The position numbers and the translations under genes were made by a program. The notes beneath the pieces were generated by a model. That model made no database searches, had not been told where the DNA came from, and saw nothing but the letters and a program-made list of their open reading frames with translations. Below are positions 2,715 to 35,051 of a stretch of DNA of 64,000 nt, piece after piece. Source of the stretch: Pseudoclavibacter sp. AY1H1 (lineage in GTDB: Bacteria; Actinomycetota; Actinomycetes; Actinomycetales; Microbacteriaceae); NCBI RefSeq assembly GCF_002931055.1, contig NZ_PSXX01000008.1, positions 1 through 64,000 on the forward strand. The letters are read 5' to 3'. Every line of letters begins with the position of its first letter. Position 1 is the stretch's first letter.

Positions 2715-4036
2715 ACCGGGGGCTCGCGAGCCGCGCCGTCGCAGGAATCGCGCTCGCCTACCTCGGTGCACGGTCCGTCGTGCTGCTCGCGAACCTGCTG
2801 ACGCAGCCGAGCCTGCGGGCCGGCGCACCAGCTCGGGAGCCTGCTCCTCGCGTTTCGCTTTTGATCCCCGCCCGCGACGAGGAGGCGACCCTGCGGGAGA
2901 CGCTGCCAGGGTTCCTCGGGCAGGGCGCCGATGAGGTCGTCGTGCTCGACGACGAGTCGAGCGACGCGACGAGGGCCCTCAGCGAGTCGGCTGGTGCTCG
3001 GGTGCTCGGCGGCGCGCCCCGCCCCGACGGCTGGACGGGCAAGAACTGGTCGTGCGCGCAGCTCGCCGAGGCAGTTGCTCCCGCTCCCGCTCCCGCTCCT
3101 TTTCCCGGTCGTGCCGCTCCCGGTCCCGCTGGTCGCGCAAGCCAGTGTCCAACTTCGGTGCAGAATCCGCCCGCAACGCCCGCTGCGGGCCGAGAACACT
3201 CGGAATCGCACCGATGTTGGTCAGGAGATCCTGAAGCAGCCGAGGCAGACGCAGACGCAGACGCCGTCGCGAGGCACCCGAGCGACGTGCTGGTGTTCAC
3301 CGACGCCGACGTGCGCTGGAGACCCGGCGCGCTCGATGCGCTGCTGGCCACCATGCGCGAGTCCCGCGCCGATCTGCTCACGGTGTTCCCGCGCCAGGAG
3401 ACGCGAACGCTCGGCGAGCGGCTCATCACCCCGTTGAACGACGCCGTCGTGCTCGGCTCGGTGCCCGTGGCCTTGCAGCACCGGCGCGCGCCGGTCGTCG
3501 CGAACGGCCAGGTCATGGCGTTCACCCGCGCCGCCTACGACCGCATCGGCGGCCACACCGCCGTGAGCGGGGAGCTCGTCGAGGACATGCGCCTCGCCGA
3601 GCGGATGCGCGCCGCTGGGGGGCGGGTTGTCGTCGCGCGCGGCGGAACCGCCATCGCCGTGCGCATGTACGACGGCTACGGCAGCTCCGTGCGCGGCTTC
3701 GCGAAGTCGCTCCTCGGCCTCCACCACGGCTCGCGAGCGCTCATGGCGGCGACGAGCCTCCTCACGGTCTGCGTCTACACGCTGCCCTGGGTGCTGCGCG
3801 TGTGGCCGGGTGCCCAAGCCAGCGCGGGCAGGGGCGCGACCGACCGCATCCTGCACCTCGTGCGCATCGCCGGGCTGCTCGATCGCACCCTCGTGAGCGT
3901 CATCACAGTGCGACGCCGGCCGCTCGACTTGGCGGAGGGCATCCTGGGCCCGATCAGTCCGCTGCTCGTGCTGCCCGTCTACGCGCTGGCCGGGCGACGC
4001 CGCGTCGCGTGGAAGGGCCGCGTCTACGAGGCGTAG
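2711..4036 (+). CDS. Glycosyltransferase family 2 with palindromic in-frame insertion
   Basis: A 441-aa membrane-associated glycosyltransferase (CrtQ-like). An N-terminal membrane segment (about 10-32) precedes the GT-A core: SLLIPARDEE near 50, a LDDESSDAT nucleotide-binding loop near 80, TDADVRW near 197, VEDM near 290 as the likely catalytic acid region, and C-terminal membrane helices. Between the AQLAEA and HPSDVLVF blocks, about residues 121-193 are a low-complexity Pro/Ala and Ala/Asp stretch absent from the expected core; without it the protein would be about 370 aa. That insert includes a palindromic DNA element (3148-3221). GTG start at 2711 overlaps the upstream stop. Confidence 0.85.
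   Translation: MNRGLASRAVAGIALAYLGARSVVLLANLLTQPSLRAGAPAREPAPRVSLLIPARDEEATLRETLPGFLGQGADEVVVLDDESSDATRALSESAGARVLGGAPRPDGWTGKNWSCAQLAEAVAPAPAPAPFPGRAAPGPAGRASQCPTSVQNPPATPAAGREHSESHRCWSGDPEAAEADADADAVARHPSDVLVFTDADVRWRPGALDALLATMRESRADLLTVFPRQETRTLGERLITPLNDAVVLGSVPVALQHRRAPVVANGQVMAFTRAAYDRIGGHTAVSGELVEDMRLAERMRAAGGRVVVARGGTAIAVRMYDGYGSSVRGFAKSLLGLHHGSRALMAATSLLTVCVYTLPWVLRVWPGAQASAGRGATDRILHLVRIAGLLDRTLVSVITVRRRPLDLAEGILGPISPLLVLPVYALAGRRRVAWKGRVYEA
3148..3221. repeat. Imperfect palindromic element inside a coding region
   Basis: Outer arms TCCAACTTCGGTGC (3148-3161) and GCACCGATGTTGGT (3208-3221) pair at 12 of 14 positions. An inner hairpin is formed by GCCCGC (3169-3174) and GCGGGC (3185-3190). 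The element is translated in frame within a linker of the glycosyltransferase and is flanked by short CCCGCT and GCAGAC repeats. Its ends resemble those of the palindrome inside nadB (33714-33793). Confidence 0.7.
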
Positions 4037-4058
4037 AAGAGCCGCCTAGACTTGAGGG

Positions 4059-4895
4059 GTGACCTCGACCGGCCTCCTGACACCCGCCATGGGTGAAGTG
4101 GAGCTGCGAGGCACCGATCTCGATCTCGACACAGATCTCGACTTCGGCACCGATCTCGACGTCGAGGCCAGCCTGGCCGCGCCCGTCGATCAGCGCCCGC
4201 GCGATGCCGCCCGGGTCCGCCGCGTGCAGCTCGCGTTCGTCGCCGCCTCCGTCTCCACGTTCATCGCGCTTGCCTCGCACATCCTCGCGGGTGGCGGGAT
4301 GCCGGGCCTCCTCGGCGTCGCCTTCCCGTTCGGCCTTGCCGTGCTCGCGTGCCTGCTGCTCGCGCGCATCCGCACCGACTCGCTGCGGCTGGCCCTGTCG
4401 GTCGGGGCCAGCCAGTTCCTCTTCCACACGCTCTTCGTGCTCGGCACGCCGTCCGCGACCGTCGGCGCGGGGTCGGCGGCGGATGCGCACGCCGGCCACG
4501 GCCAGCTCGCCGCAGCCTCCGCCATGGCTGACTTCGCGTCGAGCGCGGGCAGCGCGGCTCCTTCTGGCGCGGCGCTGCACCTGGCCCACGACGGCGCGCT
4601 CATGTGGGCGATGCACGCCGTGGCCGCGGTGCTGACGGCCCTCGCCCTCTTCTTCGGCGAGACGCTCGTCGCGAGCCTCGCCAAGGCGAAGGACGCGGCA
4701 GTCGAACTGCTGCTGCCGTTGCTGCGCACGATCTTCCTCCTCCTCGCCCGAGGCGCGCGCCCCATGGCGACCGTCGACTCGGCGCCACTCGACCTGCCCT
4801 GGGTGCCGTCGCTGACGGTTCGCGCCGGGCGCACGCAGCCGCGACGCGGCCCGCCCGCGCCCCAGCGACCCTCAACGTTCGCGACCCCGAGCTAG
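4059..4895 (+). CDS. Membrane protein preceding copper operon, His/Ala-rich loop
   Basis: A 278-aa protein of no recognised family. The N-terminus carries a DNA-repeat-derived Asp/Leu stretch (LDLDTDLDFGTDLD). Three to five hydrophobic segments follow (about 58-78, 84-104, 112-128, 188-208 and 220-235). A loop between them contains His residues (HAGHG, HLAHD) that could bind metal. It ends in a Pro/Arg-rich tail. It runs in the same direction as copC, PCu(A)C and DyP and lies 140 bp upstream of copC, so a role in the same metal system is an inference from position only. GTG at 4059 is used; ATG at 4089 is an alternative. Confidence 0.6.
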   Translation: MTSTGLLTPAMGEVELRGTDLDLDTDLDFGTDLDVEASLAAPVDQRPRDAARVRRVQLAFVAASVSTFIALASHILAGGGMPGLLGVAFPFGLAVLACLLLARIRTDSLRLALSVGASQFLFHTLFVLGTPSATVGAGSAADAHAGHGQLAAASAMADFASSAGSAAPSGAALHLAHDGALMWAMHAVAAVLTALALFFGETLVASLAKAKDAAVELLLPLLRTIFLLLARGARPMATVDSAPLDLPWVPSLTVRAGRTQPRRGPPAPQRPSTFATPS

Positions 4896-5035
4896 CACCG
4901 CATTCCCTCACCTCCTCTTCCACGGGGGAGGCACTCCGGTGCGGGTCGGCGTCGAACTTTTTCCGTCCGCGGCAGCCGCGCGCCCACTGCGCGCTCGGTT
5001 CGCGTGCGGTCGGACAGACCCGAGGAATTCTCGAG

Positions 5036-5743
5036 ATGTCAATCGACTCAACTTCCCTTTCCACGACCCAAGCACTCCTCCCACCGACCACCGAACCGAA
5101 GCGCGCCCTCCGCGCGGCCGCCGCAGTGCTCGCGCTGCTCGTGGCCTGCCTCCTGGGCTTCGCCGGCGCGGCCCCCGCGCAGGCGCACGACCAGCTCATC
5201 GAGAGCGCACCAGCGCCGGGGGCGGCGCTCGACGCGGCACCCGCCGACGTCACGCTCCGCTACTCCGCCGACATCATGGACATCGGGCCGATGATCGTCC
5301 TCGAGGACGCCGACGGCACCGCCTGGGCGACCGGCGAACCGGTCATCGACGGCTCCGCGGTCACGAGCACCATCGACGACGCGCTGCCGGACGGCTCCTA
5401 CACCATCAACTGGCGCGTCGTCTCGTCAGACGGGCACCCGATCACTGGCACGATCCCGTTCACGGTCGGCGATGTGAGTGCAGCGGATGCGCTCGCCGCA
5501 GAGGCCGCCACACCGGCGCCAAGCGAGGCGGCCGTGTCTGACGCCGACTCGGCCCCTGCCTCGGAGTCCGACTCCGGCGCGACGACCGAGCCCACGGCCG
5601 AGGTCACCTCCCGGTCGGCGTTCGACGTGCCGCGGCTGCTTCTCATCGGCGGGCTGGGCGCGGTCGTCGCGCTCGGCGTCGCCTGGGTGATCGTCCGCTC
5701 CCGCAAGGGCGCTCAGCAGGACGGCGATGCCGATGCGCGCTGA
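5036..5743 (+). CDS. CopC-domain copper-binding protein, membrane-anchored
   Basis: A 235-aa exported protein. A long N-terminal signal sequence ends at AQA followed by His-Asp, which puts a histidine at the mature N-terminus as in copper-binding CopC (histidine-brace type). The CopC fold covers about residues 52-150; a second conserved His is in SSDGHPITG near 137. An Ala/Ser/Thr-rich linker leads to a C-terminal membrane helix (about 200-222) with a basic tail. In this position it would bind copper outside the cell and hand it to partner proteins. ATG at 5036 is chosen because the signal peptide begins there; the open frame extends further upstream without signal features. Confidence 0.9.
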   Translation: MSIDSTSLSTTQALLPPTTEPKRALRAAAAVLALLVACLLGFAGAAPAQAHDQLIESAPAPGAALDAAPADVTLRYSADIMDIGPMIVLEDADGTAWATGEPVIDGSAVTSTIDDALPDGSYTINWRVVSSDGHPITGTIPFTVGDVSAADALAAEAATPAPSEAAVSDADSAPASESDSGATTEPTAEVTSRSAFDVPRLLLIGGLGAVVALGVAWVIVRSRKGAQQDGDADAR

Positions 5744-5792
5744 CTCCGCCGCCCAACACCTTCACTTCTCCTCCCGAAAAGGAACCGCACTC

Positions 5793-6428
5793 ATGGCCAG
5801 CATGACCAGCATGACCGCGACCACCATCCGCCCCCTCGCAGCAGCGGCCTTCCTCGCGGCCGCCGCCCTCGCCCTCACGGGGTGCGCGACGGCAAGCACC
5901 GCGACCGGGGCTGATGCCGATTCGGCGACGCCCGCCGCCGAGTCCGTCACCGTCGAGAACACCTGGGTCAAGGCCGAGGACTCCGGCATGTCCGCCGCAT
6001 TCGGCGAGATCGAGAACACGGGGGCGGGGGACGTGACGATCGTGTCGGTCGCGAGCCCGGCATCCACCGCCCTCGAGCTGCACGAGACCGTCGCGAACGA
6101 GACCGGTGAGATGACGATGCGCGAGAAGGGCGGCGGATTCACGATCGCCGCCGGTGAGGCGCTCACCCTCGAGCCCGGTGGCAACCACATCATGCTCATG
6201 GACCTGCCGGAGCCCATCGTCGCGGGCGACGAGGTCACCTTCACCCTCACGTTCTCGGACGACTCGACGCTCGACTTCACCGCCCCTGCCAAGGACTACG
6301 CGGGCGCCAACGAGACCTACGAAGACGGCGACATGGATGACATGGGCGGCAACATGGAGACGGACAACAGCGACCACGCCGACCACAGCGACCACGCGGA
6401 CAACAGCGACCACGCGGACAACAGCTGA
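5793..6428 (+). CDS. PCu(A)C copper chaperone lipoprotein with His-rich tail
   Basis: A 211-aa lipoprotein: signal peptide with lipobox LTGC near residue 30, then a PCu(A)C domain (DUF461). The Cu(I) site is visible as His in LELHETV, Met in GEMTM and the HIM motif in GNHIMLMD. The C-terminus is a repeat of Asp/His/Ala/Asn/Ser encoded by an 18-bp tandem repeat, an extra His source that may hold more copper. Such chaperones deliver Cu(I) to cuproenzymes outside the cell. The stop overlaps the ATG of the DyP peroxidase gene by one base. The start at 5793 follows an AAAAGGA ribosome-binding site. Confidence 0.92.
   Translation: MASMTSMTATTIRPLAAAAFLAAAALALTGCATASTATGADADSATPAAESVTVENTWVKAEDSGMSAAFGEIENTGAGDVTIVSVASPASTALELHETVANETGEMTMREKGGGFTIAAGEALTLEPGGNHIMLMDLPEPIVAGDEVTFTLTFSDDSTLDFTAPAKDYAGANETYEDGDMDDMGGNMETDNSDHADHSDHADNSDHADNS
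6363..6425. repeat. 18-bp in-frame tandem repeat in PCu(A)C tail
   Basis: About 3.5 copies of an 18-bp unit (GACAACAGCGACCACGCG with minor changes) encode the His/Asp-rich C-terminus. Copy number would change how many His residues the tail carries. Confidence 0.85.
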
Positions 6429-7666
6429 TGCACGGCGACCAGAGCCCTGGTCGCACCCGCCCGACTCGGCGGCAGCTCCTCTTCGGAGGAGCTGTCGCCG
6501 GGTTCGGCGCGGCCGCGGCCATCGGCGCAGACCAGGCGCTCCGCCTCGCGGCACCCGTTGCGAGCCAGGACGACAGCGTTCCCGTTCCCCTGCCGGGGGA
6601 CGACACCGTCCCGTTCTACGGCCAGCATCAGGCCGGCATCGCGACGCCGCCACAGGCGCACGCGACACTCGTGGCCCTCGACCTGCGCGACGGCACCGAC
6701 CGCGACGCGCTGCGCCGCCTCATGCAGCTCCTCACCGACGACGCGGCGAGGCTCGCACGCGGCGAACCGGCGCTCGCCGACTCGGAACCCGAGCTCGCGC
6801 AGGTTCCCGCGAACCTCACGGTCACGTTCGGGTTCGGGCCGGAGTTCGTCCGCCGCGCCTCCACCTCCTCGACGCAGGCCCCCGCCTGGCTGCGGCCACT
6901 CCCCGCCTTCGGGATCGACCGCCTCGAGGACGCGTGGAACGACGGCGACCTGCTCCTGCAGGTCGCCGCCGACGACCCGTTCACCGTCGCCCACGCGCTG
7001 CGGATGCTGCTGAAGGACACCCGCAGCTTCGCGACCGTGCGGTGGACGCAGCCCGGATTCCGCCGGGCACGCGGCTCCGAGGCATCCGGCACGACGATGC
7101 GGAACCTGTTCGGGCAGGTCGACGGCACCGTCAACCCCGCGCCGCCGACCGTCGACTTCGAGCAGCTCGTGTGGATCACGGAGGGCGCGTTCGCGGGAGG
7201 GACGGGCATGGTGGTGCGGCGCATCAGCATGGACCTCGACAAGTGGGACAGGCTCGACCGCAGCGGCCGCGAGCAGTCGGTCGGGCGCACCCTCGCGAAC
7301 GGGGCCCCGCTCACCGGAACCCAGGAGCACGACGAGCCCGACTTCACCGCCAAGAACGCCGCGGGATTCCCCGTCATCGCCGAGTTCTCGCACCTGCGGC
7401 GGGCGCGGTCGGAGAACACGGCGGAGCGGTTCTTCCGCCGCGGCTACAACTACGACGACGCCCCGAGCGGCGAGCAGATCTCGAACTCCGGCCTGCTCTT
7501 CATCTCCTTCCAGGCGGACGTGGATGCGCAGTTCGTGCCCGTGCAGCGGCGCCTCGACGAGCTTGATCTGCTCAACGAGTGGACGACGCCGATCGGCTCC
7601 GCGGTATTCGCCATCCCACCTGGATGCGCGGAAGGCGGCTACATCGGAGAGGGGATCCTCGCGTGA
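6428..7666 (+). CDS. Dyp-type heme peroxidase, Tat-exported
   Basis: A 412-aa dye-decolorizing peroxidase. The N-terminus has a twin-arginine signal (TRRQLLFGGAVAG, residues 13-25), so the protein is exported folded with heme bound. The family GXXDG motif is seen as GQVDG near 228, followed by NP. The heme-ligand region is FSHLRRARS near 320, with a distal Arg downstream. The C-terminal part is a second ferredoxin-like half. DyP, PCu(A)C and CopC genes occur together in Streptomyces (DtpA with its copper chaperones), which supports a joint role in extracytoplasmic metal or oxidant handling. EfeB-type deferrochelatase is the nearest alternative name. Confidence 0.93.
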   Translation: MHGDQSPGRTRPTRRQLLFGGAVAGFGAAAAIGADQALRLAAPVASQDDSVPVPLPGDDTVPFYGQHQAGIATPPQAHATLVALDLRDGTDRDALRRLMQLLTDDAARLARGEPALADSEPELAQVPANLTVTFGFGPEFVRRASTSSTQAPAWLRPLPAFGIDRLEDAWNDGDLLLQVAADDPFTVAHALRMLLKDTRSFATVRWTQPGFRRARGSEASGTTMRNLFGQVDGTVNPAPPTVDFEQLVWITEGAFAGGTGMVVRRISMDLDKWDRLDRSGREQSVGRTLANGAPLTGTQEHDEPDFTAKNAAGFPVIAEFSHLRRARSENTAERFFRRGYNYDDAPSGEQISNSGLLFISFQADVDAQFVPVQRRLDELDLLNEWTTPIGSAVFAIPPGCAEGGYIGEGILA

Positions 7667-9159
7667 GCTCTGCGCGTCCGACTCCACGGCGAGGCTGGTT
7701 CGCTCAGCTGCTGATGCGCCTCCACTTCTTCGCCGGCGTGTTCGTCGGCCCGTTCATCCTCATCGCGGCGCTGAGCGGCGCACTGTACGCGCTGACACCG
7801 CAGATCGAGCAGCTCGTGTACGACCGCGAGCTGCACGCGCCGACGGTGGACGAGGTCCTGCCGCTCGCCGAGCAGATCGAGGCGGCCGACGCCTACATCG
7901 GGGACGGTGCGGACGGTGCGGACGGTGCAGCCCCGGCGATCGTCGCGGTGCGGCCGGCCCCGGAACCCGGCGACACGACGCGGGTCATGTACGCGGATGC
8001 CGGGCTGGGGGAGAGCACGACCAGAGCCGTCTTCGTCGATCCCGCGACCGCCGAGGTGCGCGGGGACCTGCCCGTGTATGGCACCTCGGGCTCCCTGCCG
8101 TTCCGAACCTGGGTCTCCGACCTGCACCGCAGCCTCCACCTCGGCGATGCCGGCCGGCTCTATAGCGAGCTCGCGGCGTCTTGGCTCGGGGTCGTCGCAC
8201 TCGCCGGAGCTGGCCTCTGGGCGACCAGGTATCTGCGGGCTCGCAGTGCGAAGCGGGCGTCGCAGCAGCGCGAGCTGCTGCGGCCGAACCTCGCTGCGAC
8301 AGGGTTCGTTCGCACGCGCAGCCTGCACGCATCCACCGGCATCTGGGTGCTCGCCGGGGCGCTCTTCCTGTCGGTCACGGGCATCACCTGGTCGCAGTAC
8401 GGCGGGGCGAACTTCAGTGAGCTGCGCGCCGCCGTGGGCTGGACGACGCCGTCGGTCAGTACGAGCCTCGACGGCGTGGGCGGCCCAGCTGCCGACGAGC
8501 ACGACGAGCACACCGGGCACGGGCACAGTCACGGTGCGCCGACGCCGAGTGCCGACGTCGCAGCGCTGAGCCCGCGCGCCTACGACTCGGTGCTCTCGGT
8601 CGCGCGCGAGGTGAACGTCAACACGGGGCTCGTCGAGATCAGGCCGCCGGCCGAGCCGGGCACCGCGTGGGTCGTGCAGGAGATCCAGCGCAGCTTCCCG
8701 ACCGAGGTGGATGCGGTGGCCATCGATGGCGCGACGATGCAGGTCGTCGACCGGGTCGACTTCGCCGAGTTCGGGCCGGTCGCGAAGCTCAGTCGGTGGG
8801 GCATCGACCTGCACATGGGCTCCATGTTCGGCCTCGCCAACCAGCTCGTGCTGTTCGCCGTCGCCGTCGGCATCGCGGCGATGGTCGTATGGGGCTACGT
8901 CATGTGGTGGCAGCGGCGGCCGAAGCACGACCCGTCGCGTCGTGTCGGCGCGTCTCCGCCGCGGGGAGCGTTCCGGCGCGCGCCGTGGTGGGGCGTCCTG
9001 CTCGTGCTGGCGGGTGCGGCAGCGGTCGGAGTGTTCCTGCCGCTCATGGGAGCCAGCCTCGCCGCGTTCCTGCTGGTCGACCTCGCCGTTGGCGTGGTCG
9101 GGCGTCGGCGTCGGGGTCGGGGAAGGGAGCGCAGCAGAACTCCTCATCTTCAGCGGTGA
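7663..9159 (+). CDS. PepSY-associated transmembrane protein
   Basis: A 498-aa membrane protein of the PepSY_TM family: first helix about 22-45 (LHFFAGVFVGPFILIAALSGALY), then an extracytoplasmic PepSY-like part, helices near 165-185 and 220-245, a His-rich loop (HDEHTGHGHSHG), and C-terminal helices near 395-420 and 445-475. His residues on the helices fit a heme-binding or reductase role, as proposed for relatives. GTG at 7663 overlaps the DyP stop (GTGA), so it is coupled to the peroxidase and may serve its heme or electron supply. A 9-bp unit GGACGGTGC is repeated three times at 7902-7928. Confidence 0.85.
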   Translation: MSSARPTPRRGWFAQLLMRLHFFAGVFVGPFILIAALSGALYALTPQIEQLVYDRELHAPTVDEVLPLAEQIEAADAYIGDGADGADGAAPAIVAVRPAPEPGDTTRVMYADAGLGESTTRAVFVDPATAEVRGDLPVYGTSGSLPFRTWVSDLHRSLHLGDAGRLYSELAASWLGVVALAGAGLWATRYLRARSAKRASQQRELLRPNLAATGFVRTRSLHASTGIWVLAGALFLSVTGITWSQYGGANFSELRAAVGWTTPSVSTSLDGVGGPAADEHDEHTGHGHSHGAPTPSADVAALSPRAYDSVLSVAREVNVNTGLVEIRPPAEPGTAWVVQEIQRSFPTEVDAVAIDGATMQVVDRVDFAEFGPVAKLSRWGIDLHMGSMFGLANQLVLFAVAVGIAAMVVWGYVMWWQRRPKHDPSRRVGASPPRGAFRRAPWWGVLLVLAGAAAVGVFLPLMGASLAAFLLVDLAVGVVGRRRRGRGRERSRTPHLQR

Positions 9160-9219
9160 GTTTCGAGCGTGTCGTCGGACCGGGCCAAGAATGTCGGTGG
9201 TCCGGGGGAAGCTGGTCGC

Positions 9220-10857: not shown

Positions 10858-10886
10858 CCGGGGCCGGTCGCGGACCGGGGCCGGTC
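10856..10886. terminator. Two tandem 14-nt palindromes between convergent genes
   Basis: The palindrome GACCGGGGCCGGTC occurs twice (10856-10869 and 10873-10886) between the convergent HNH and Mn-catalase genes. Each copy can form a short GC hairpin on both strands. There is no T-tract, so termination is inferred from position only. Confidence 0.45.
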
Positions 10887-10905
10887 GCGCTGCCCTGTCT
10901 TCGCT

Positions 10906-13297: not shown

Positions 13298-13474
13298 GCT
13301 CAGAGTCTGTGCCGCGTGGGGATGAAGGTCCCCACCCCTTGTCACGTGTGCCGTGGTGTGCATCCGACGGGTGTGGATGGGCAGCCCCTGTGCATCCGCA
13401 GCGACCGCGCCTCAGACCTGGCCAATGGTCCTGGCTGTTGCTACCGTTGGATGTTGAAGCCCCGGAATCGGGCT

Positions 13475-13519
13475 TGCGGACGAGGGAGCAGTACCCGCAC
13501 CACGACAAGACTGACTCAG
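13475..13519 (+). ncRNA. Guanidine-III riboswitch (ykkC-III / mini-ykkC III)
   Basis: The core CGGACGAGG (13477-13485), then GTACCCGCA (13491-13499), then ACAAGAC (13505-13511) matches the known guanidine-III aptamer, best studied in Thermobifida fusca. P1 pairs TGCGG (13475-13479) with CCGCA (13495-13499). The pseudoknot pairs GAGCAGT (13486-13492) with ACTGACTC (13510-13517) with one bulge. The AGAAGGAG ribosome-binding site begins at 13518, directly after the pseudoknot strand, which suggests control of translation. Guanidine binding is expected to turn on the exporter genes downstream. Confidence 0.88.
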
Positions 13520-13530
13520 AAGGAGCCGTC

Positions 13531-13845: not shown

Positions 13846-13847
13846 CC

Positions 13848-24243: not shown

Positions 24244-24257
24244 GGCGACAGAGTCCA

Positions 24258-24380
24258 CGTGCTCCGGGGTCGGTGTAATTCCGAGCCGGCGGTTATAGTC
24301 CGCGACCTGCTCCCGCAAGGGAGTGGCTGATCTGGTGAAATTCCGGAACCGACGGTGAAAGTCCGGAAGGGAGGCGCACG
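24258..24380 (+). ncRNA. FMN riboswitch (RFN element)
   Basis: Conserved RFN blocks are present in order: GGGGTCGGTGTAATTCCGA, GCCGGCGGTTATAGTCCGCGA, a variable hairpin (CTCCCGCAAGGGAG), GATCTGGTGAAATTCC, ACCGACGGTGAAAGTCCGGA and GGGAGG. P1 pairs CGTGC (24258-24262) with GCACG (24376-24380), and CTCC with GGAG. A hairpin follows at once (GACGGCACGCC with GGCGTACCGTC), and a second stem (AGCTTTC with GAAAGC, 24462-24477) lies just before the ribX start. FMN binding should lower expression of the downstream genes, probably by blocking translation initiation. Confidence 0.95.
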
Positions 24381-24484
24381 TGACGGCACGCCTCGGCGTA
24401 CCGTCAGCTCGTGGAATCCGCCGACCAGTTCGGCGACCTCCACGCGCCTCGTCATCCCCGGAGCTTTCCACGAAAGCCGGGTAG

Positions 24485-25369: not shown

Positions 25370-25394
25370 GACCTCTCTCGATCTGGAGACGCCC

Positions 25395-27506: not shown

Positions 27507-27551
27507 CAGGAACCCCTCTCGTCAGGAACGCTCACGAGGCTAAACCAGCCC

Positions 27552-27595
27552 TGGACCATCTGAAAGTTCCAGATGACGAGCAGTATCTTGGTCCA
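27552..27595. promoter_or_regulatory. Candidate MocR operator between divergent genes
   Basis: Two nested inverted repeats occupy the short divergent region: CATCTG (27557-27562) with CAGATG (27570-27575), and TGGACCA (27552-27558) with TGGTCCA (27589-27595). Paired sites of this kind are typical of MocR-type regulators that control themselves and a divergent neighbour. Confidence 0.5.
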
Positions 27596-28945
27596 ATGGA
27601 TGATCTCTTCCGTCTGGACAGGTCATTGCCGAAAGCGCGTGCGGTCGAGCACACCATCCGCAATGCGATCGCACGAGGTGCCCTCGCTCAAGGGGCCAGG
27701 TTGCCTGCCACGCGCGAACTCGCTGTGGAGTTCGGCATCGCCCGCAACACCGTCGTGGCCGCGATCGACGACCTCGTCGCCGAAGGCGTCCTGGAAGCCC
27801 GGCCGCGGGCCGGGATTTTCGTCGCTCGCAACACCTCCCCGGCACACCGCACGGAGAAGACTGCCCCCGGGATGCGGTCTGGGTTTGATCTGCGACCAGG
27901 GCAGCCTGAGCGTGGCTCCTTCCCGACCGCACGATGGCTCGCTGCCACCCGGCGCGCCGCGTCATCCGCGGGAGCCTTCGAAACGGATGGAGCGGGCGTC
28001 TTGGAGTTGCGCAGCGAGCTCGCGGCCTATCTCAGTCGAGCCCGCGGGGTAGAGACCACTGCCGAGGCGATCGTGATCTGTGCTGGTTTCCGCACCGCCT
28101 GCACGCTTCTTGCCGCCGCACTCGCATCTCAGGGCGCGACAACGATCGAGATCGAAGACCCATCGCTGCCCGGGATCGACCGGCCCTGGCGCACGGCCGG
28201 GCTCACCGTGAACGATCTTCCCGTAGACAACGACGGTGCCGATGTCAGTCAGCTACGCAATGAGACCGACGCAGTCCTGCTGACCCCGGCGCATCAGTTC
28301 CCGCTCGGCGGCGCGCTCGCCCCCACCCGACGTCAACTCGTCGCTGATTGGGCCACAACAAACGACAGCTACATCATCGAGGACGACTACGACGGCGAAT
28401 TCCGCTTCGATCGTCGCCCGATCGCGGCACTGCAACGATCCGTGCCCGAACACGTCGTCTACGCGGGTAGCGCCAGCAAGACCCTCGATCCCGGGCTTCG
28501 GCTCGGCTGGCTCGTCCTTCCGCACGATCTCGTACAGCCCGTCACTGAGGTCTCCGAGGCCCTCACTGGCGGCGCCCCGGTACTCAACCAGCTCGCTCTC
28601 GCGTACCTGATCCGCAGCGGGGACTACGAACGCCACATCCGCCGCCAGCGCCGCGAATACGCTCGACGCCGCGCCTATCTTCAACGCGCGCTCCACAGTG
28701 CGGGGTACGACGTCCCCGGTATCCCGGCCGGACTCCACGCCCTGATCCCGGTGAGTGAGGATCAGGTGACCTTGGCGAGCGACCATGACGGCCTCTCCTC
28801 AGACGCTGTCGCAGTGCACACGCTTTCCCGCTACACCCGAAGCCATCCGCAACCCCGAGCGCTCGTCACCGGATTCGCTACACCCTCGCGCCCTCAATTC
28901 GAACCAGCGATCAACGCCCTCATCGCGCTACTGAACACGCCTTGA
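27596..28945 (+). CDS. MocR family transcriptional regulator (GntR-type HTH plus aminotransferase domain)
   Basis: A 449-aa fusion. Residues 1-75 form a GntR winged helix (RNAIARGALAQGARLPATRELAVEFGIARNTVVAAIDDL). Residues 105-449 form a class I aminotransferase-like domain with the PLP lysine in GSASKTLDPGLRLGW near 296 and the EDDYDGEFRF block near 262. MocR proteins sense PLP or related metabolites and control nearby genes. The divergent Rossmann-fold gene is the obvious candidate target. Nothing in the region points to PLP synthesis itself, so a PdxR role is not supported. Confidence 0.92.
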   Translation: MDDLFRLDRSLPKARAVEHTIRNAIARGALAQGARLPATRELAVEFGIARNTVVAAIDDLVAEGVLEARPRAGIFVARNTSPAHRTEKTAPGMRSGFDLRPGQPERGSFPTARWLAATRRAASSAGAFETDGAGVLELRSELAAYLSRARGVETTAEAIVICAGFRTACTLLAAALASQGATTIEIEDPSLPGIDRPWRTAGLTVNDLPVDNDGADVSQLRNETDAVLLTPAHQFPLGGALAPTRRQLVADWATTNDSYIIEDDYDGEFRFDRRPIAALQRSVPEHVVYAGSASKTLDPGLRLGWLVLPHDLVQPVTEVSEALTGGAPVLNQLALAYLIRSGDYERHIRRQRREYARRRAYLQRALHSAGYDVPGIPAGLHALIPVSEDQVTLASDHDGLSSDAVAVHTLSRYTRSHPQPRALVTGFATPSRPQFEPAINALIALLNTP

Positions 28946-28972
28946 CGTCTACAACCTCACGGCGAGCAACGG

Positions 28973-29623
28973 CTAGGCGTCCTCCGGCTCCTCGCCGTCG
29001 CGCGCGGCCATCCGCTTCTGGATGGCCGACGAGACGGGGCCCGTGAGGAGCAGCAGCAGCCAGGTGTAGCGCGCAGGGTCCGGGCCGAGGAGGAACGCGA
29101 CCGGGATCGACAGGGCGAACACGGCCGGCACGACGAACGTGAACGCCGACCGGCGGCGCGCCGCCCGCGACGGCTCCGTGAGCCCGCGGTGCACAGCCAC
29201 GACCCAGATGACGTGCTGCGCGAGCGACGCGCAGATGATGTTGACGGCGTAGAGCACGACCGGCAGGGGCTGCGAGTCGAGGCTCGCCTCGCTCATCGAC
29301 GCGGTGCTGAACGGCAGCAGCACGATGAAGAACATCGCCACGATGTTGGTGTTGAGCAGCGGGCCGTCGAGCGCCGACACCTCGCCCATGAGGCGGTGGT
29401 TGACCTTCCAGAAGTTCGCGATGACGAAGAAGCTGATCGCGAAGGCGAGGAGCTGGTCGAGCACGCCGGAGCCGGCGAGCGCATCCCAGCTCGCCCAATG
29501 GTCTGCCGTTGGCGGCACGATGTCGACGACAAGCAGGGTGATGGCGACCGCGTAGACCGCGTCGAAGAACGTCAGCCCACGGTCGAACTCCGTGGTGCCG
29601 CGTGCGTAGCTGCGTGAAGCCAT
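28973..29623 (-). CDS. TMEM175/DUF1211 family potassium channel-like protein
   Basis: A 216-aa membrane protein with six helices. The N-terminal signature RGLTFFDAVYAVAITLLVVDI (about 14-34) matches the conserved filter helix of prokaryotic TMEM175 channels, although the usual FSD triplet is FFD here. Helices follow at about 58-75, 92-110, 118-140, 160-180 and 183-200. Prokaryotic relatives conduct potassium with weak selectivity. ATG at 29623 begins directly before the signature; the frame extends further up without features. Confidence 0.82.
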   Translation of the reverse strand: MASRSYARGTTEFDRGLTFFDAVYAVAITLLVVDIVPPTADHWASWDALAGSGVLDQLLAFAISFFVIANFWKVNHRLMGEVSALDGPLLNTNIVAMFFIVLLPFSTASMSEASLDSQPLPVVLYAVNIICASLAQHVIWVVAVHRGLTEPSRAARRRSAFTFVVPAVFALSIPVAFLLGPDPARYTWLLLLLTGPVSSAIQKRMAARDGEEPEDA

Positions 29624-29652
29624 GATGGATGCTCCGTCTCCGTGAGGTCTGG

Positions 29653-30231
29653 TCAGTTGAGGGAGCGGATGACGCGTGCCGGGTTGCCCACGGCGACGAC
29701 ATTCGCGGGCAGGTCCTTCGTGACGACGGCGCCAGCGCCCACGACCGTGTTCTCGCCGATCGTGACGCCGGGGCAGACGATGACGCCGCCGCCAAGCCAC
29801 ACGTTGTCGCCGAGCGTGATGGGCGCGCCCGCCTCGTAGCCGGCGCGACGGGGCTCGGGGTCGAGTGGATGCGTCGGCGTCAGCAGCTGCACGTTCGGCC
29901 CGATCTGGCAGCTCGCACCGATCGTGATGGGAGTGACGTCGAGCGCCACGAGACCCACGTTGACGAAGGTGCCGTCGCCGATCGTGATGTTGGAGCCGTA
30001 GTCGACGTACAGGGGCGCCTTCACGGTGACGTTCGCGCCCAGACTGCCGAGGAGCTCGGCGAGGATCCCGGATGCGCGCTCCGTGTCGACGGGGAACGCC
30101 GCGTTGTACTCGGCCTGCAGCCGAACCGCGCGCTCCGCCCCCGCCAGCAGCTCCGGGTCGTCCGCGTGGTACAGCTCGCCGGCCAGCATCCGCTGCTTCA
30201 TGGTGCGACCGTCGTCGAAGTTCACCGTCAT
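29653..30231 (-). CDS. Maltose/galactoside O-acetyltransferase family protein (LbH)
   Basis: A 192-aa left-handed beta-helix acetyltransferase. The N-terminal Mac domain is seen in MKQRMLAGELYHADDPEL. Hexapeptide repeats follow, with PLYVDYGSNITIGDGTFVNVG, the catalytic His in TPTHPLDP, and the NVWLGGGVIVCPGVTIG turn. It ends in AVGNPARVIR, typical of Maa/NodL/LacA enzymes. It acetylates a sugar using acetyl-CoA. It lies 29 bp upstream of the TMEM175-like gene and divergent from the DNA methyltransferase. Confidence 0.92.
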   Translation of the reverse strand: MTVNFDDGRTMKQRMLAGELYHADDPELLAGAERAVRLQAEYNAAFPVDTERASGILAELLGSLGANVTVKAPLYVDYGSNITIGDGTFVNVGLVALDVTPITIGASCQIGPNVQLLTPTHPLDPEPRRAGYEAGAPITLGDNVWLGGGVIVCPGVTIGENTVVGAGAVVTKDLPANVVAVGNPARVIRSLN

Positions 30232-30306
30232 GGCAGAACCCTAGCCTGCGCCCGGATACGGCCGAGTATGCACATTCCGACGCGCTCGGCGCGTTAATCT
30301 CGACGG

Positions 30307-31308
30307 GTGACCTCGTTGTGGAACGCCGCAGGACCCGACCTCGTCGTGCACGGCGACAACCTCGACGCCATGAGCCGCCTCCCAGACTGTGCCTTCCAGG
30401 TGATCTACCTCGACCCGCCCTTCAACACCGGCAAGCAGCAGAAGCGGCAGTCGGTGAAGGTGAAACGGCAGTCGCCAGTGGAGGAGTCCGTCGAAGCCGC
30501 GGAGCTCGGGGAGGCGCTCGCGCACGACGCCGCGCCCGCCGAATCGGAGGCCGCGGCCCCAGCATCCACGCCGCTCACCCGCACGGGGTTCCAGGGTCGC
30601 AGCTACGAGCACACCCTCGGGGAGCTCTCGGCGTTCAACGACGAGTTCGCCGACTACTGGGGCTTCCTCGAGCCACGCCTCGTGGAGGCCTGGCGGCTGC
30701 TCGACGAGACGGGCACCCTGTACCTGCACCTCGACTACCGGGAATCGCACTACGCGAAGGTGGTCCTCGACGCGCTCGTGGGGCGCGACAAGTTCCTCAA
30801 CGAGATCATCTGGGCGTACGACTACGGGGCGCGCACGTCGAAGCGGTGGCCGGCGAAGCACGACACGATCCTCGTTTACGTGAAGGACCCGAAGAAGTAC
30901 CACTTCGATGCCGCCGAGGTCGACCGTGAGCCGTACATGGCACCCGGCCTGGTCACCGAGGCGAAGCGGGAGCGGGGCAAGCTGCCGACGGACGTCTGGT
31001 GGCATACGATCGTCTCCCCGACCGGCAAGGAGCGCACCGGCTACGCGACGCAGAAGCCGGCGGGGCTGCTGCGGCGCATGATCCGCGCATCCAGCCGGGA
31101 GGGCGACTGGGTCGCCGACTTCTTCGGCGGCTCCGGCACGACGGCGGCGGTGGCGCGCGAGTGCGGGCGCAGGGTCGTGACGGTCGACGCGTCGGTGGAT
31201 GCGCTGCGCACCATGCGGAGGCGTCTCGGCCCTGAGGGGGTCGAGTACCGGAAGCTCACGAAGGACGGCTCGAGGCTCCTCTCGGGCGCCCCGAAGCGCA
31301 GGCGCTAG
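30307..31308 (+). CDS. Orphan site-specific DNA methyltransferase (N6_N4 type)
   Basis: A 333-aa beta-class amino-methyltransferase. Motif IV is DPPFNTG at 36-42 and the SAM-binding motif I is DFFGGSGTT near 273-281, giving the IV-to-I order of the beta class. About 45 residues after DPPFNTGK are a low-complexity Glu/Ala/Pro stretch not expected in the core. No restriction enzyme or specificity gene is nearby, so it is probably a solitary modification enzyme; the recognised sequence is unknown. GTG start at 30307. The TAG stop shares a CTAG with the stop of the convergent cysteine desulfurase. Confidence 0.9.
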   Translation: MTSLWNAAGPDLVVHGDNLDAMSRLPDCAFQVIYLDPPFNTGKQQKRQSVKVKRQSPVEESVEAAELGEALAHDAAPAESEAAAPASTPLTRTGFQGRSYEHTLGELSAFNDEFADYWGFLEPRLVEAWRLLDETGTLYLHLDYRESHYAKVVLDALVGRDKFLNEIIWAYDYGARTSKRWPAKHDTILVYVKDPKKYHFDAAEVDREPYMAPGLVTEAKRERGKLPTDVWWHTIVSPTGKERTGYATQKPAGLLRRMIRASSREGDWVADFFGGSGTTAAVARECGRRVVTVDASVDALRTMRRRLGPEGVEYRKLTKDGSRLLSGAPKRRR

Positions 31309-32450
31309 CCCCTCGAGACCCGCGCGACCGACTCGAGGAGGGCGTCCGCGACCCCACCGAGCTCCTCTGCGGTCGTGGACGCTCCCCACGTGAACCGCAG
31401 GGCGGTCCGCGCGTCGTCCTCCGCGATGCCGAGGGCGAGCAGCACGTGCGACGGCTCGTCGTGGCCTGCGGCGCAGGCCGCGCCAGCCGAGGCGAGCACG
31501 CCGTGCTGCTCGAGCTCGAGCAGCACCGTCTCGCCGTTGATGCCGGGGATGACGAGCGACGCGTGCCGGGGGAGGCGAGCGGATGCGTGGCCCGTGAGCC
31601 GCGCGCCCGGGACCGACCCCAGCACCGCGGCGACGAAGGCGTCCCTGGCGCCGACGGCGTCGAGCTGGCCCGCGCGCCGCTCCTCGTCGGCGAGCCGCAG
31701 CGCGACCGCGAACGCCACCGCGAAGGCCACGTTCTCCGTGCCCGAGCGACGCCCTCGTTCCTGGCCGCCACCGTGCATGAGCGGCTCCAGCGGCAGCCTC
31801 GACCGCACCGCGAGCACCCCGACCCCCTTCGGTGCCCCGAGCTTGTGGCCGGACACGCTGAGTGCATCCACGCCGGTCGACGACATCGAGATGTCGAGGG
31901 AGCCCGCCGCCTGGATGGCGTCCGTGTGGAACGGCACACCGCGCGCATGGGCAACGTCGGTGAGAGCGGCGATGTCCTGCACCGTGCCGACCTCGTTGTT
32001 CGCCGTCGAGAGCGAGACGAGCGTCGTGTCGTCGCGGAGGGCAGCGGCGAGCGACTCCGCGCTGACCGTGCCGCGGGCATCCACGTCGACGAACGACACC
32101 TCGAAGCCGTGGAGCCGCACCAGTGCGTCGACGGAGGCGAGCACCGATTCGTGCTCGAGGCGACTCGTCACGACGTGCCGTCCGCGCGGGTCGCCGAGCG
32201 CGAGGCCCTTGACCGCCAGATTGTTCGCCTCGGTGCCGCCCGAGGTGAAGACGACCTCGGTGGCGCGGCAGCCGAGCACGGCCGCGATGCTCTTCCTGGC
32301 GTCGGCCAGCGCTGCAGCCGCCTCCTCGCCGAGCCCATGCGTGCTCGACGGGTTGCCGAACGACGCCGTCAGGAACGGCCAGGCGGCGGCGAGCGCCTCC
32401 TCGCGAACCGGCGAGGTCGCCGCGGCGTCGAGGTGCAGCACGTCAGCCAT
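31305..32450 (-). CDS. Cysteine desulfurase of the NAD operon (NifS/NadS-like)
   Basis: A 381-aa PLP enzyme that takes sulfur from cysteine. The first block HLDAAATSPVREE, the TSGGTEANNLAVKG block and the PLP lysine in VSGHKLGAPKGVG (near 190-202) are clear. The active-site Cys loop is SAGAACAAGHDEPSH near 325. It overlaps nadC by 8 bp and is the last gene of the nad operon. A dedicated NifS-type enzyme there most likely supplies sulfur for the iron-sulfur cluster of NadA, a pairing seen in other bacteria. Confidence 0.92.
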   Translation of the reverse strand: MADVLHLDAAATSPVREEALAAAWPFLTASFGNPSSTHGLGEEAAAALADARKSIAAVLGCRATEVVFTSGGTEANNLAVKGLALGDPRGRHVVTSRLEHESVLASVDALVRLHGFEVSFVDVDARGTVSAESLAAALRDDTTLVSLSTANNEVGTVQDIAALTDVAHARGVPFHTDAIQAAGSLDISMSSTGVDALSVSGHKLGAPKGVGVLAVRSRLPLEPLMHGGGQERGRRSGTENVAFAVAFAVALRLADEERRAGQLDAVGARDAFVAAVLGSVPGARLTGHASARLPRHASLVIPGINGETVLLELEQHGVLASAGAACAAGHDEPSHVLLALGIAEDDARTALRFTWGASTTAEELGGVADALLESVARVSRG

Positions 32451-33324
32451 CGGCGTCTGACACGGGCCCGACCTCGAGCGACATATCGAGACCCAGGTCG
32501 ATGGCCCGCGCGCTGTGGGTGAGCGCGCCGACGGAGATGACGTCGACACCGGTCTCCGCGATCGCCGCGACCGTCTCGAGGCTCACCCCGCCGCTCGCCT
32601 CCACGACCGCCCGACCGGCGATGAGGGCGACACCCTCGCGCAGCTCGGCAAGCGAGAAGTTGTCGAGCATGATCGTGTCCACGCCCGCGTCGAGCACCGC
32701 CGGGATCTGGTCGAGCCGATCGACCTCCACCTCGACGTGCGTCGTGTGGCCCAGCTTCGCGCGCGCCGCGAGGAGCGCATCCGTGACCCCGAGACCGGAC
32801 TGCTGGAGCAGCACCGCCAGGTGGTTGTCCTTCGCCATGACCGCATCGGACAGCGAGAAGCGGTGGTTCCGGCCGCCCCCGCTCGCGACGGCGTGCCGCT
32901 CGAAGGCCCTGAGCCCTGGCGTCGTCTTGCGGGTGTCCGTGATGCGAGCCGAGGTGTGGGCGACGGCCTCGACGTAGCTCCGAGTGAGGCTCGCGATGCC
33001 GCTCATCCGCTGCGTGAAGTTCAACGCGACCCGCTCGGCCGTCAGCACCGACCCGGCGGGGCCCGTCACGGTCGCCAGCACATCCCCGGCCGCGAACGCC
33101 TCGCCATCCTCGGCGTGCATATCGACGAGGACCTCGGCATCCGTCAGCCGGAACGCCGCCGCGAACACGTCGATGCCCGAGAGCACCCCCGCCTCGCGGG
33201 CGACGAGCGTCGCGCTCGCGGTCGCCTCGACGGGAATGAGCGCATGAACCGTGATGTCACCCCACGGGGCGTCTTCGGCGAGCCCCGCGCTCACGGCGGT
33301 CGCGATGTGGGCAGGAGTCAGCAT
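32443..33324 (-). CDS. nadC: Nicotinate-nucleotide pyrophosphorylase (carboxylating)
   Basis: A 293-aa quinolinate phosphoribosyltransferase that forms nicotinate mononucleotide from quinolinate and PRPP. Seen are EDAPWGDITVHALIP near 16-30, the NFTQRMSGIAS helix, RITDTRKTTPGLRAFERHAVASGGGRNHRF, and the C-terminal barrel pattern EVEVDRL, DTIMLDNFS, VEASGGVSLE and DVISVGALTHS. ATG at 33324 overlaps the nadB stop (ATGA), and its end overlaps the desulfurase start. Confidence 0.96.
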   Translation of the reverse strand: MLTPAHIATAVSAGLAEDAPWGDITVHALIPVEATASATLVAREAGVLSGIDVFAAAFRLTDAEVLVDMHAEDGEAFAAGDVLATVTGPAGSVLTAERVALNFTQRMSGIASLTRSYVEAVAHTSARITDTRKTTPGLRAFERHAVASGGGRNHRFSLSDAVMAKDNHLAVLLQQSGLGVTDALLAARAKLGHTTHVEVEVDRLDQIPAVLDAGVDTIMLDNFSLAELREGVALIAGRAVVEASGGVSLETVAAIAETGVDVISVGALTHSARAIDLGLDMSLEVGPVSDADG

Positions 33325-35051
33325 CAGTGCGCCATCGCCTTCTGTCGGAGGGGGAGCGAGCGGGGGAGTGCGCGCGGCGACGCGGGCGGGGACGCCGCCT
33401 CTGCCGCCCCCGCCGCCGGATGCTCGTCGGATCGGAAGTGCGCGCCCACCGACTCGGTGCGGGCAAGAGCTGCGGCCACCGTGAGGCGGGCGAGGAGGAG
33501 CAGGTTCGTGTCCTCGCGGTCGGAGACGGAGGAGGAAGCCCCCTCTGTTGGCCGTGCTTCGGCCCACGCGTCGAGCGTGAGCTTGGCGTCTTCGAGCGCC
33601 GGACCGCTGCGGTGCAGCCCCGCCTGCGCCCACATGAGCCCCTGCAGCGCCCCGCGCGAGAAGGCTGGCGTCGCCTGCGCCCCCGCCACCCCCGCGGTTG
33701 CCGCCGCCGCCGTCTGACCAACTTGCGGGATGAGACCGGCATCCGCGCAGCCATCCGCTTGCCTGGCCCCATCTGGTCCCGGAAGTTGGTCAGCGGCGGC
33801 GAGGGATCGCGCTGCGGCGTCGTGGTGGATCGCCTCCGCGACGCGACGCCCGAACACGGCACCCTCGAGGAGCGAGTTCGACGCGAGCCGGTTGGCGCCG
33901 TGCACGCCGGTGCGGGCGGTCTCCCCGGCGGCGAACAATCCGCGGATGCTCGTGCGCCCGGAGAGGTCGGTCACGACCCCGCCCATGAGGTAGTGGGCGG
34001 CCGGCGTCACGGGCACGGTCTCGCGCGACCAGTCGAGCCCGCTCTCGTCGATGTGCGCGGTGATGCTGGGGAACCGGCGCTCGAGGAACTCCCGCCCGAG
34101 GTGCCTCGCATCGAGGCGGACAGGGCGGCCGACCTGCCTCGCCATCTCGTCGGCGATGCCCCGCGCCACGACGTCGCGTGGGGCGAGCTCCGCGTCGGGA
34201 TGCACGCCGAGGAGGAACCGCTCGCCCGCTTCGTTCAGCAGCACGGCTCCCTCCCCGCGCACGGCTTCCGAGATGAGCGCGCCGCCGGAGCCGGCGAGCA
34301 CTGTCGGGTGGAACTGCACGAACTCCAGGTCGGCGAGCTGCGCGCCGGCCCTGGCTGCGGCGGCGATGCCGTCGCCGGTCGCGACGGCGGGGTTGCTCGT
34401 GTGGGCGAAGAGCTGGCCGGTGCCGCCCGTCGCGAGGACGACGGCGTCGGCGGAGTGGAAGCGGGGCGTCGGCGCCTCGGGGCTGAGCAGCCACGCGCCG
34501 ACGGCACGCTCGCAGCGCACCGCGACGTCGGCGAGGAACGTGTGCTCGAGCAGCCGGAGCTCGCCCTTCGCGGCCGCCGATCGGACTGCTGCGCTGAGCG
34601 CGCGCTGGATCTCGCGCCCCGTGGCATCCCCGAACGCGTGCAGGATGCGGGCGTGCGAATGCGCGGCCTCCAGGCCCCGGCTGAGCGCGCCGGCGGGTTC
34701 CCGGTCGAAGCGGGTGCCGAGCGCGATCAGCTCGAGGATGCGCGCCTCCGCGGAACGGCAGAGCTCCTCGATGGCGCGCCGGTCGCCGAGGCCGGCACCG
34801 GCCGCGACGGTGTCGCGGACGTGCGACTCGACGCTGTCGTCGGCGTCGCCGATGCCGATGCCGATGCCGGTGCGAGTGCCGAGCACCGCCGCGATGCCGC
34901 CCTGGGCGTGGGACGTGGCGGTGTCGTCAATTGTCGTTTTCGTGACGACGCTCACGTCGTGGCCTTCTGCGCAGGCGGAGAGGGCGGCGGTCAGGCCGGC
35001 GATGCCGCTCCCGATGACGAGGACCCGCAGGGGCCCGGCCTCCCGGGCCAT
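33324..35051 (-). CDS. nadB: L-aspartate oxidase with in-frame palindromic insert
   Basis: A 575-aa FAD enzyme that oxidises aspartate to iminoaspartate, the substrate of NadA. The FAD-binding motif VIGSGIAGLTAAL is at 11-23. SHAQGGIAAVLG, EFVQFHPTVLAG and the ANRLASNSLLEGAVFG block are present. A Gly/Ile run after VLGTRTG comes from a GCCGAT hexamer repeat. Between the FAD part and the C-terminal helical domain (SRGALQGLMW), about 27 residues are encoded by a palindromic DNA element (33714-33793). It lies 1 bp after nadA. Confidence 0.95.
   Translation of the reverse strand: MAREAGPLRVLVIGSGIAGLTAALSACAEGHDVSVVTKTTIDDTATSHAQGGIAAVLGTRTGIGIGIGDADDSVESHVRDTVAAGAGLGDRRAIEELCRSAEARILELIALGTRFDREPAGALSRGLEAAHSHARILHAFGDATGREIQRALSAAVRSAAAKGELRLLEHTFLADVAVRCERAVGAWLLSPEAPTPRFHSADAVVLATGGTGQLFAHTSNPAVATGDGIAAAARAGAQLADLEFVQFHPTVLAGSGGALISEAVRGEGAVLLNEAGERFLLGVHPDAELAPRDVVARGIADEMARQVGRPVRLDARHLGREFLERRFPSITAHIDESGLDWSRETVPVTPAAHYLMGGVVTDLSGRTSIRGLFAAGETARTGVHGANRLASNSLLEGAVFGRRVAEAIHHDAAARSLAAADQLPGPDGARQADGCADAGLIPQVGQTAAAATAGVAGAQATPAFSRGALQGLMWAQAGLHRSGPALEDAKLTLDAWAEARPTEGASSSVSDREDTNLLLLARLTVAAALARTESVGAHFRSDEHPAAGAAEAASPPASPRALPRSLPLRQKAMAH
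33714..33793. repeat. Palindromic element inside nadB
   Basis: CTGACCAACTT (33714-33724) and AAGTTGGTCAG (33783-33793) are perfect inverted ends. Pairing continues inward with CGGGA (33726-33730) and TCCCG (33777-33781). The 80-bp element is translated in frame in the linker between the two NadB domains. The ends resemble those of the palindrome in the glycosyltransferase gene (3148-3221): both carry CCAAC near one end and GTTGG near the other. Confidence 0.8.
34848..34871. repeat. In-frame hexamer repeat GCCGAT in nadB
   Basis: Three exact copies and one variant of GCCGAT encode the Gly/Ile run GIGIGIGD near the N-terminus of NadB. The unit length preserves the frame. Confidence 0.85.

Follow-up and report, generated by a model that had tools for sequence, protein, structure and literature searches.

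The window analyzed here is a stretch of 64,000 nucleotides from the genome of Pseudoclavibacter sp. AY1H1, and it carries two imperfect palindromes that are translated as part of a glycosyltransferase gene and of nadB. Extragenic palindromes of many families are known from bacterial genomes, and their function is disputed; a preliminary description of this DNA had likened the two palindromes to the Rickettsia palindromic elements (RPEs), which spread into coding sequences. Are they mobile inserts of this kind, or do they represent something else? The observation is confirmed and extends beyond the first report: there are about fifty sites per genome, so far found in one group of Pseudoclavibacter only (five species). 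As detailed below, the palindromes are probably clade-restricted, bipartite sites in double-stranded DNA, the centre of which would be bent around a putative protein holding both arms.

A genome-wide family in one group of Pseudoclavibacter

Both palindromes are present as described, at 3148-3221 and 33714-33793. The distance from CCAAC to GTTGG is exactly 72 nt in each, or 76 nt once the outer GN...NC is counted, and a search of the window for pairs of CCAAC and downstream GTTGG spanning 45 to 145 nt gave no further place. The elements, their parts and their host genes are the following:

2711..4036, + strand: glycosyltransferase gene, family-2/21-type, 441 aa, with element 1 in frame (TGT CCA ACT TCG ...)
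3145..3224, no strand: element 1 (80 bp; 76-nt core 3147-3222), inside the glycosyltransferase gene, with arms GTCCAACTTCGGTGC and GACCAACATCGGTGC
3147..3168, + strand: left arm (half-site) of element 1, used in the half-site statistics
3169..3200, no strand: interior of element 1, fixed in length and not conserved in sequence, used in the identity and A/T analyses
3201..3222, - strand: right arm of element 1, used in the half-site statistics
33324..35051, - strand: nadB, L-aspartate oxidase, 575 aa, with element 2 in frame (GAC CAA CTT CCG ...)
33714..33793, no strand: element 2, type B (80 bp; 76-nt core 33716-33791), inside nadB
33716..33737, + strand: left arm of element 2, used in the half-site statistics
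33738..33769, no strand: interior of element 2, used in the identity and A/T analyses
33770..33791, - strand: right arm of element 2, used in the half-site statistics

The preliminary description had called for a search of the whole genome, a lack of further copies being taken there to refute a mobile element. Further copies do exist. The pattern GNCCAACWT-N54..62-AWGTTGGNC occurred at 33 places in the 4.2-Mb AY1H1 genome (G000; relatives are coded G001 to G007 and so on, G005 being RFBB5) versus none for a reversed control, a looser pattern at 15 places versus 2, and a covariance model trained on 35 copies retrieved 53 places (150 candidates scored). This copy number is far beyond chance. In fetched regions, inverted arm pairs were found in AY1H1 (14), G005 (9), G002 (9), G001 (10) and G007 (8) and none in G004, while the same regions contained a single direct-orientation pair, in AY1H1, and none in the other five genomes.

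The covariance model found many copies in four of nine other genomes of the genus, a single weak match in G003 (E 0.0047), and no match in the remaining four or in any of 50 genomes from outside the genus. The copy numbers of the relatives are lower bounds, because 75 candidates were scored per genome under stricter filters than in AY1H1. When the strict pattern was run over one genome per species (84,980 species), it returned 54 stretches, all titled Pseudoclavibacter and belonging to helvolus, terrae, RFBB5 and AY1F1; in a sample of the family, 5 of 398 genomes (AY1H1 included) and 1 of 85 genera matched. A scan of viral_contigs with the element pattern gave no match, and we rejected a phage origin on this ground. 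The family was unfamiliar to the preliminary description as well, and literature searches covering open PMC papers found no description of it.

Paired half-sites at a fixed distance, with helically phased A/T between them

We then considered what the copies have in common. The set comprised 142 distinct elements from fetched DNA (AY1H1 50, terrae 28, helvolus 22, RFBB5 22, and AY1F1 20), recognized by a scan that relied on the two 16-nt ends only and permitted lengths of 60 to 99. The length was 76 nt in 135 of the 142 elements and 77 nt in six, and the one element read as 96 nt consists of a 76-nt element followed by an extra half-end. In one close orthologous pair (G005:314746 and G001:214119), compensating indels bring the length back to 76.

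The arms define two subfamilies, marked by AGTGC (type A) and CGTGA (type B), with half-site consensus sequences of about CTGWCCAACWTSAGTGCRAWWT and about CTGDCCAACTTSCGTGAYGR, respectively. In type A, the conserved part covers 80 bp, with CTG at both ends. Pairing of the arms is homotypic (75 AA, 38 BB, 2 AB, and 20 other; n = 135), and their specificity sums to about 26 bits over 15 columns. All 65 exact half-sites in AY1H1 lie inside the 53 element places (reversed-pattern control, 1). Since no exact half-site occurs elsewhere in this genome, it holds no longer element (autonomous partner) with these ends. The two arms of type A vary almost independently, with covariation at column 8 (p 0.0045) and at columns 17 and 21 (p 0.026 and 0.0135), as would be expected if each arm were read as double-stranded DNA.

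The interiors of the AY1H1 copies share little sequence (median ungapped identity of 0.39 in the better orientation). What they share is the placing of A/T, which peaks at columns 18-20, 28-29, 38-39, 48-49, and 57-59; type A elements have an A/T fraction of 0.62 to 0.96 at columns 18-20, 28-29, and 38 as well as at the columns mirroring these, and one of 0.07 to 0.24 at columns 21-26 and 32-36. We tested the phase on columns 23-54, which had not been used in finding the 142 elements (an earlier list, of AY1H1 elements only, had used whole-length profiles), by means of the 10-bp component centred on the dyad. This component was strong in type A (z 21.5, n = 78), in type B (z 8.5, n = 40), and in unclassed elements (z 8.5, n = 17), and it was found in each of the five species (z 8.1 to 12.0). 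Deviations from the common phase stayed within 60 degrees in 76 of 78 type A and 33 of 40 type B elements. With a single element per site, the AY1H1 genome still gave z 10.6, with 30 of 34 elements within 60 degrees. Even the in-gene copies, despite coding, lay within 25 degrees in seven of the eight tested, element 1 being at -24 degrees. The best interior period was 9.75 to 10.

At the peaks, A or T is chosen with little preference: type A pairs from AY1H1 with A/T in both members carried the same base in 0.53 to 0.61 of cases at six columns, so the periodicity is not simply the remnant of one ancestral sequence. The flank control was significant too (|F| 172.8 versus a null of 35.4). Outside the arms, A/T is weakly phased in type A elements (z 6.4 at periods 10.3 and 10.5, z -6.9 at 9.5) and not in those of type B, so that the flanks do not serve as a clean negative control.

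The sequence of the element itself thus helps to separate the options. Three of its features, namely, type A arms that vary almost independently, a length fixed almost to the base pair, and helically phased A/T with a free choice between A and T, point to double-stranded DNA bent on a protein and away from both a hairpin in RNA and a recent transposon.

Orthologous sites, mobility and genomic place

Over about 150 to 200 kb of synteny, most sites are filled in several species, with 1 to 3 tandem copies per site. Tandem elements whose starts are 140 to 207 bp apart are seen in AY1H1 at C24:171537-171943, C4:94144-94367, C19:87819-88109, and C13:6140-6405. From 36 one-to-one orthologous pairs, we used 31, dropping five with a member that was not 76 nt long. 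Identity was 0.84 in the ends, 0.58 in the interior (ungapped), and 0.78 in the flanks (aligned columns); the 14 pairs with arms of matching type gave 0.90, 0.62, and 0.80. The changes differ in kind. A/T swaps made up 57 of 152 changes at the peaks, 3 of 241 in the troughs, and 53 of 705 in the flanks, and G/C swaps made up 6 of 152, 127 of 241, and 207 of 705, respectively. Since the peaks are mostly A/T, we restricted the test to changes involving A or T, among which the share of A<->T was 57 of 146 (39%) at the peaks and 53 of 498 in the flanks; an unselected relic changing at flank rates would be expected to show about 19%. The excess holds in 20 same-type pairs (29 of 71). This swapping of A for T at orthologous peaks suggests selection in place.

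Not every orthologous site is filled. G002:494941 carries an element where four species are empty, though the junction is not clean; AY1H1 lacks the element that G005, G001, and G007 carry at G005:310869. At G000:C24:145500-145660 (L152), where three relatives have a type B element, AY1H1 has another hairpin with 16-bp arms (GGCCAGGGTCCTCGCG...CGCGAGGACCCTGGCC), as read by eye.

Such presence and absence at orthologous sites, together with inverted ends, a dispersed intergenic location, two or three tandem copies at one site, and restriction to one clade, would also suit the main rival of a binding site: old and now immobile repeats like the repetitive extragenic palindromes (REPs) and bacterial interspersed mosaic elements (BIMEs) or the miniature inverted-repeat transposable elements (MITEs). 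The palindromes would then be selfish, spread in the ancestor of the five species by an enzyme since lost or unrecognized, and the constant length and the phased bendability would be left over from this enzyme's need to pair both ends. The arms, being so specific (about 26 bits over 15 columns), must indeed have been copied somehow. Signs of movement are nevertheless scarce. Target duplications outside the 78- or 80-bp element were absent at k 6 to 9 (0 of 142) and numbered at most 2 at k 4 to 5 (0 to 2 in the control), 6 or 7 at k 3 (9 to 10 in the control), and 22 at k 2 (14 in the control). There were no near-identical dispersed copies, the best ungapped interior identity between non-tandem, non-orthologous elements being 0.75 among 135 elements; the tandem pair C24:171541/171864, which the script had labeled dispersed, was not counted as such. 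A parent element with the same ends was not found in the AY1H1 genome, the one genome searched, and Y1_Tnp, the domain of REP-associated tyrosine transposases (RAYTs), was found in none of 10 genomes of the genus (the control was positive in 5 of 14). Two specific candidates were rejected here: a REP/RAYT system (no Y1_Tnp in the 10 genomes; GTAG at 2 of 284 ends) and a recent MITE (target duplications and recent copies are missing, as is a parent element in AY1H1). Besides, arms, length and A/T peaks persist in the orthologous copies, whereas relics should lose them. We consider the old, stalled repeat possible but rather unlikely.

The genomic place of the elements bears on a further explanation, in which they act as RNA hairpins, either bidirectional terminators or stabilizers of mRNA 3' ends. 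Among 51 mapped AY1H1 elements, 47 are intergenic, 2 lie in genes, and 2 are unplaced. Gene positions came from a home-made gene caller; the glycosyltransferase copy was assigned to the inside of the gene by homology and appears co-directional in the caller output because the caller split the gene at the element. The intergenic sites (n = 33, a tally that excludes two unplaced C9 elements and both in-gene elements) comprise 18 convergent, 11 co-directional, and 4 divergent gaps. Convergent gaps make up 24% of the intergenic bases in AY1H1 (gaps of at least 100 bp; 18% in G005 and G001), and the bias in AY1H1 is significant (18/33 versus 24%; p 1.6e-4). At C22:35122, for example, the element lies 9 and 8 bp from its two genes. 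The density of elements is regional, with 14 on C24 (191 kb) and 2 on C1 (908 kb). The dnaA gene was located, and a connection with the replication origin was set aside because the order of the contigs is not given by the assembly.

Convergent gaps and nearness to stop codons, as at C22:35122, are what terminators would show. The elements also fold strongly, as the folding proposed in the preliminary description demonstrated on 80 elements (mean z -4.8 for the full element, -0.97 for the interior), and the other hairpin of AY1H1 at the site of G005:310869, seen by eye, could be read in the same sense. A first covariation test on 35 mixed copies looked positive, for the most part because two subfamilies had been pooled, and covariation of the arms was rejected as a demonstration of a hairpin. 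G-U pairs (67) are barely more numerous than A-C pairs (57) on the transcribed strand. Taken with the near-independence of the type A arms, this near parity speaks for a pair of half-sites in double-stranded DNA rather than for an RNA stem, although a stem is possible for type B. Moreover, a terminator requires neither such specific arms nor a fixed length of 76 nt. Rfam had no match in seven loci (81,404 bases), and in the window it matched two riboswitches, neither at an element, which led us to reject a known structured RNA. Altogether, RNA hairpins appear improbable as the explanation of the family.

The two riboswitches of the window, both above the Rfam gathering scores, are an FMN riboswitch at 24256-24382 (94.7 bits) and a guanidine-III riboswitch at 13454-13520 (43.4 bits). 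Positions 1-178, at the start of the contig, form a perfect 61-bp inverted repeat (1-61 / 118-178), which may be an assembly fold-back.

What, then, of the two palindromes that lie in genes? As had been proposed, both are translated without a stop, the frames being open through both genes, and both lie in hypervariable linkers. Element 1 encodes residues ~146-171 of the glycosyltransferase, with the N-terminal GT2 match (49-94) before it and the TDADV motif after it, and element 2 encodes NadB residues ~421-446, between FAD_binding_2 (10-394) and Succ_DH_flav_C (468-542). Low-complexity linkers (Asp/Ala, Ala/Pro, and Gly-Ile repeats) next to both elements vary strongly in length across species. 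The glycosyltransferase orthologues of G001 and G007 also carry the element, as does that of G002 judging by the match places, its sequence not having been read. The objection that orthologues might carry the same linker without a palindrome fails for this gene: the RFBB5 orthologue has no insert, and the linker is missing too. In nadB, an element occupies the same linker and frame in five species (AY1H1, G001, G002, G005, and G007), and this copy is hence not a recent insertion. It is of type B in AY1H1 and of type A in G005, G001, and G007, while G002 has one A arm and one mixed arm; G004 has a linker without an element.

The in-frame copies in two genes are what had suggested a repeat of the RPE type spreading into coding sequences. 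Part of the analogy stands, since the palindromes are dispersed and in frame in two genes, and part does not, namely, size, the CGTC tag, a conserved peptide, and recent spread. Only 2 of the 51 mapped AY1H1 elements are in genes, the reading frames differ between nadB and the glycosyltransferase, there is no conserved peptide, and the element measures 76 to 80 bp. The genome census largely refutes this explanation, which we regard as very improbable.

A proposed bent binding site and its relation to known systems

The best reading of the family is that of a paired binding site with bent DNA, to which a mobile element in genes is secondary. It builds on what was observed directly: the arms, the fixed length, the phasing, the homotypic pairing, the orthologous retention, and the mainly intergenic place with its convergent bias in AY1H1. 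The features that are conserved suggest sites under selection where they stand rather than an insert that spreads. Two inverted half-sites would stand at one fixed helical distance, and A/T-rich steps every ~10 bp in the DNA between them would enable it to bend around a protein gripping both arms. One protein complex may bind both arms and bend or wrap the DNA over about one turn, with the minor grooves of the A/T steps turned to the same side; a rigid length would follow from such bending, and a left-handed wrap would agree with a period of less than 10.5. The sites would be kept by selection, presumably in a chromosomal role, as topological or insulating sites between genes, rather than for promoter control. 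The nadB and glycosyltransferase copies would be sites of this kind, which the expandable linkers tolerate and which are translated along with them.

Several observations weigh against this explanation. No binding protein was identified, and the 51 of 69 listed neighbouring proteins that were scanned contained neither a shared family nor a recombinase. The convergent bias is weaker in the relatives, where 9 of 36 elements lie in convergent gaps versus ~18% of intergenic bases (G005 and G001); of the others, 22 are co-directional, 1 is divergent, and 4 are in nadB. The nadB element of AY1H1 is poorly phased (64 degrees), the worst among the eight in-gene copies. Type B arms covary at columns 13, 16, 19, and 20, which a hairpin model predicts as well, and the interior, too, folds somewhat better than its shuffles. 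As to the orthologous pairs, they are not independent and were picked for a recognizable element in both species, and those of G007:92732 (with G005 and G002) are maybe not true orthologues, with little change when they are dropped. The contrast in identity between interior and flanks is overstated, because flank identities permit gaps and interior ones do not. G/C swaps in the troughs (127 of 238 changes involving G or C) hardly exceed the relic expectation of ~48%, so that only the peaks speak for selection. Finally, since the element is missing at some orthologous sites, no single site is essential.

With regard to the neighbouring genes, a common theme was rejected, none being apparent in the 51 of 69 listed proteins; eight of the scanned proteins are transcription regulators of different families. 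At L151:2768-2993, an element lies 66 bp upstream of the called gene start in AY1H1, G002, G005, and G007, and in AY1H1, the gene downstream encodes a MerR/GyrI-like regulator.

More tentatively, the family could be a nucleosome-like positioning element, with about 50 sites per genome, each of roughly one superhelical turn (76 to 80 bp) on a putative dedicated protein clamped at both ends. The sites would lie mainly between often convergent genes, act as a topological or transcription boundary, and be kept even inside genes. If the binding-site reading is true, the five species, with ~50 sites in the counted genome and a short DNA probe, would offer a compact system for finding a new DNA-organising protein, and such a site would have been retained inside the coding frame of an enzyme.

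Among known systems, integron attC sites vary in length and stand in cassette arrays with an integron integrase, whereas the length of the Pseudoclavibacter element is fixed and its sites are scattered. The BIMEs of Escherichia coli are bound by IHF. Compared via passages of three papers (PMC6379681, PMC3733652, PMC10969869), none of REP/BIME, MITE, RPE, and the gyrase motif fits. RPEs are described there as ~150 bp long, nearly half in genes, with a conserved peptide (PMC10969869) and CGTC at one end (PMC3733652). They share with our element palindromes in frame within genes. Unlike them, the Pseudoclavibacter element is in genes in 2 of the 51 mapped AY1H1 copies (2 unplaced), is 76 nt long in 135 of 142 cases, has an interior identity of 0.58 between orthologues, uses two frames, encodes no conserved peptide, and has CGTC within 12 nt outside 12 of 284 ends. 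The MITEs named in the same passages, Correia, ERIC, and RUP (PMC10969869), are likewise short, with terminal inverted repeats and no open reading frame of their own; our element differs in its rigid length and in that no target duplication, no conserved interior, and, in AY1H1, no autonomous partner was found.

The likeness is closer to the BIME/REP sequences of E. coli, which are intergenic inverted repeats in small arrays with a suggested chromosome-organising role (PMC6379681, PMC3733652), the extragenic location being matched here by 47 of 51 AY1H1 elements. REPs are given as 20 to 40 bp long, ending in GTAG and accompanied by RAYT transposases (PMC3733652), while the Pseudoclavibacter element has 76 to 80 bp, two long matching arms, no GTAG tag, and no Y1_Tnp. 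BIME-2 is bound by gyrase. The gyrase motif obtained by Topo-Seq is reported to be degenerate in sequence, with a period of 10.75 bp in two 47-bp regions flanking a central cleavage part (PMC6379681), whereas our element is periodic in its centre, at ~9.75 to 10, between two highly specific arms. In both cases, phased GC/AT variation can be read as DNA lying on the surface of a protein (PMC6379681, for gyrase).

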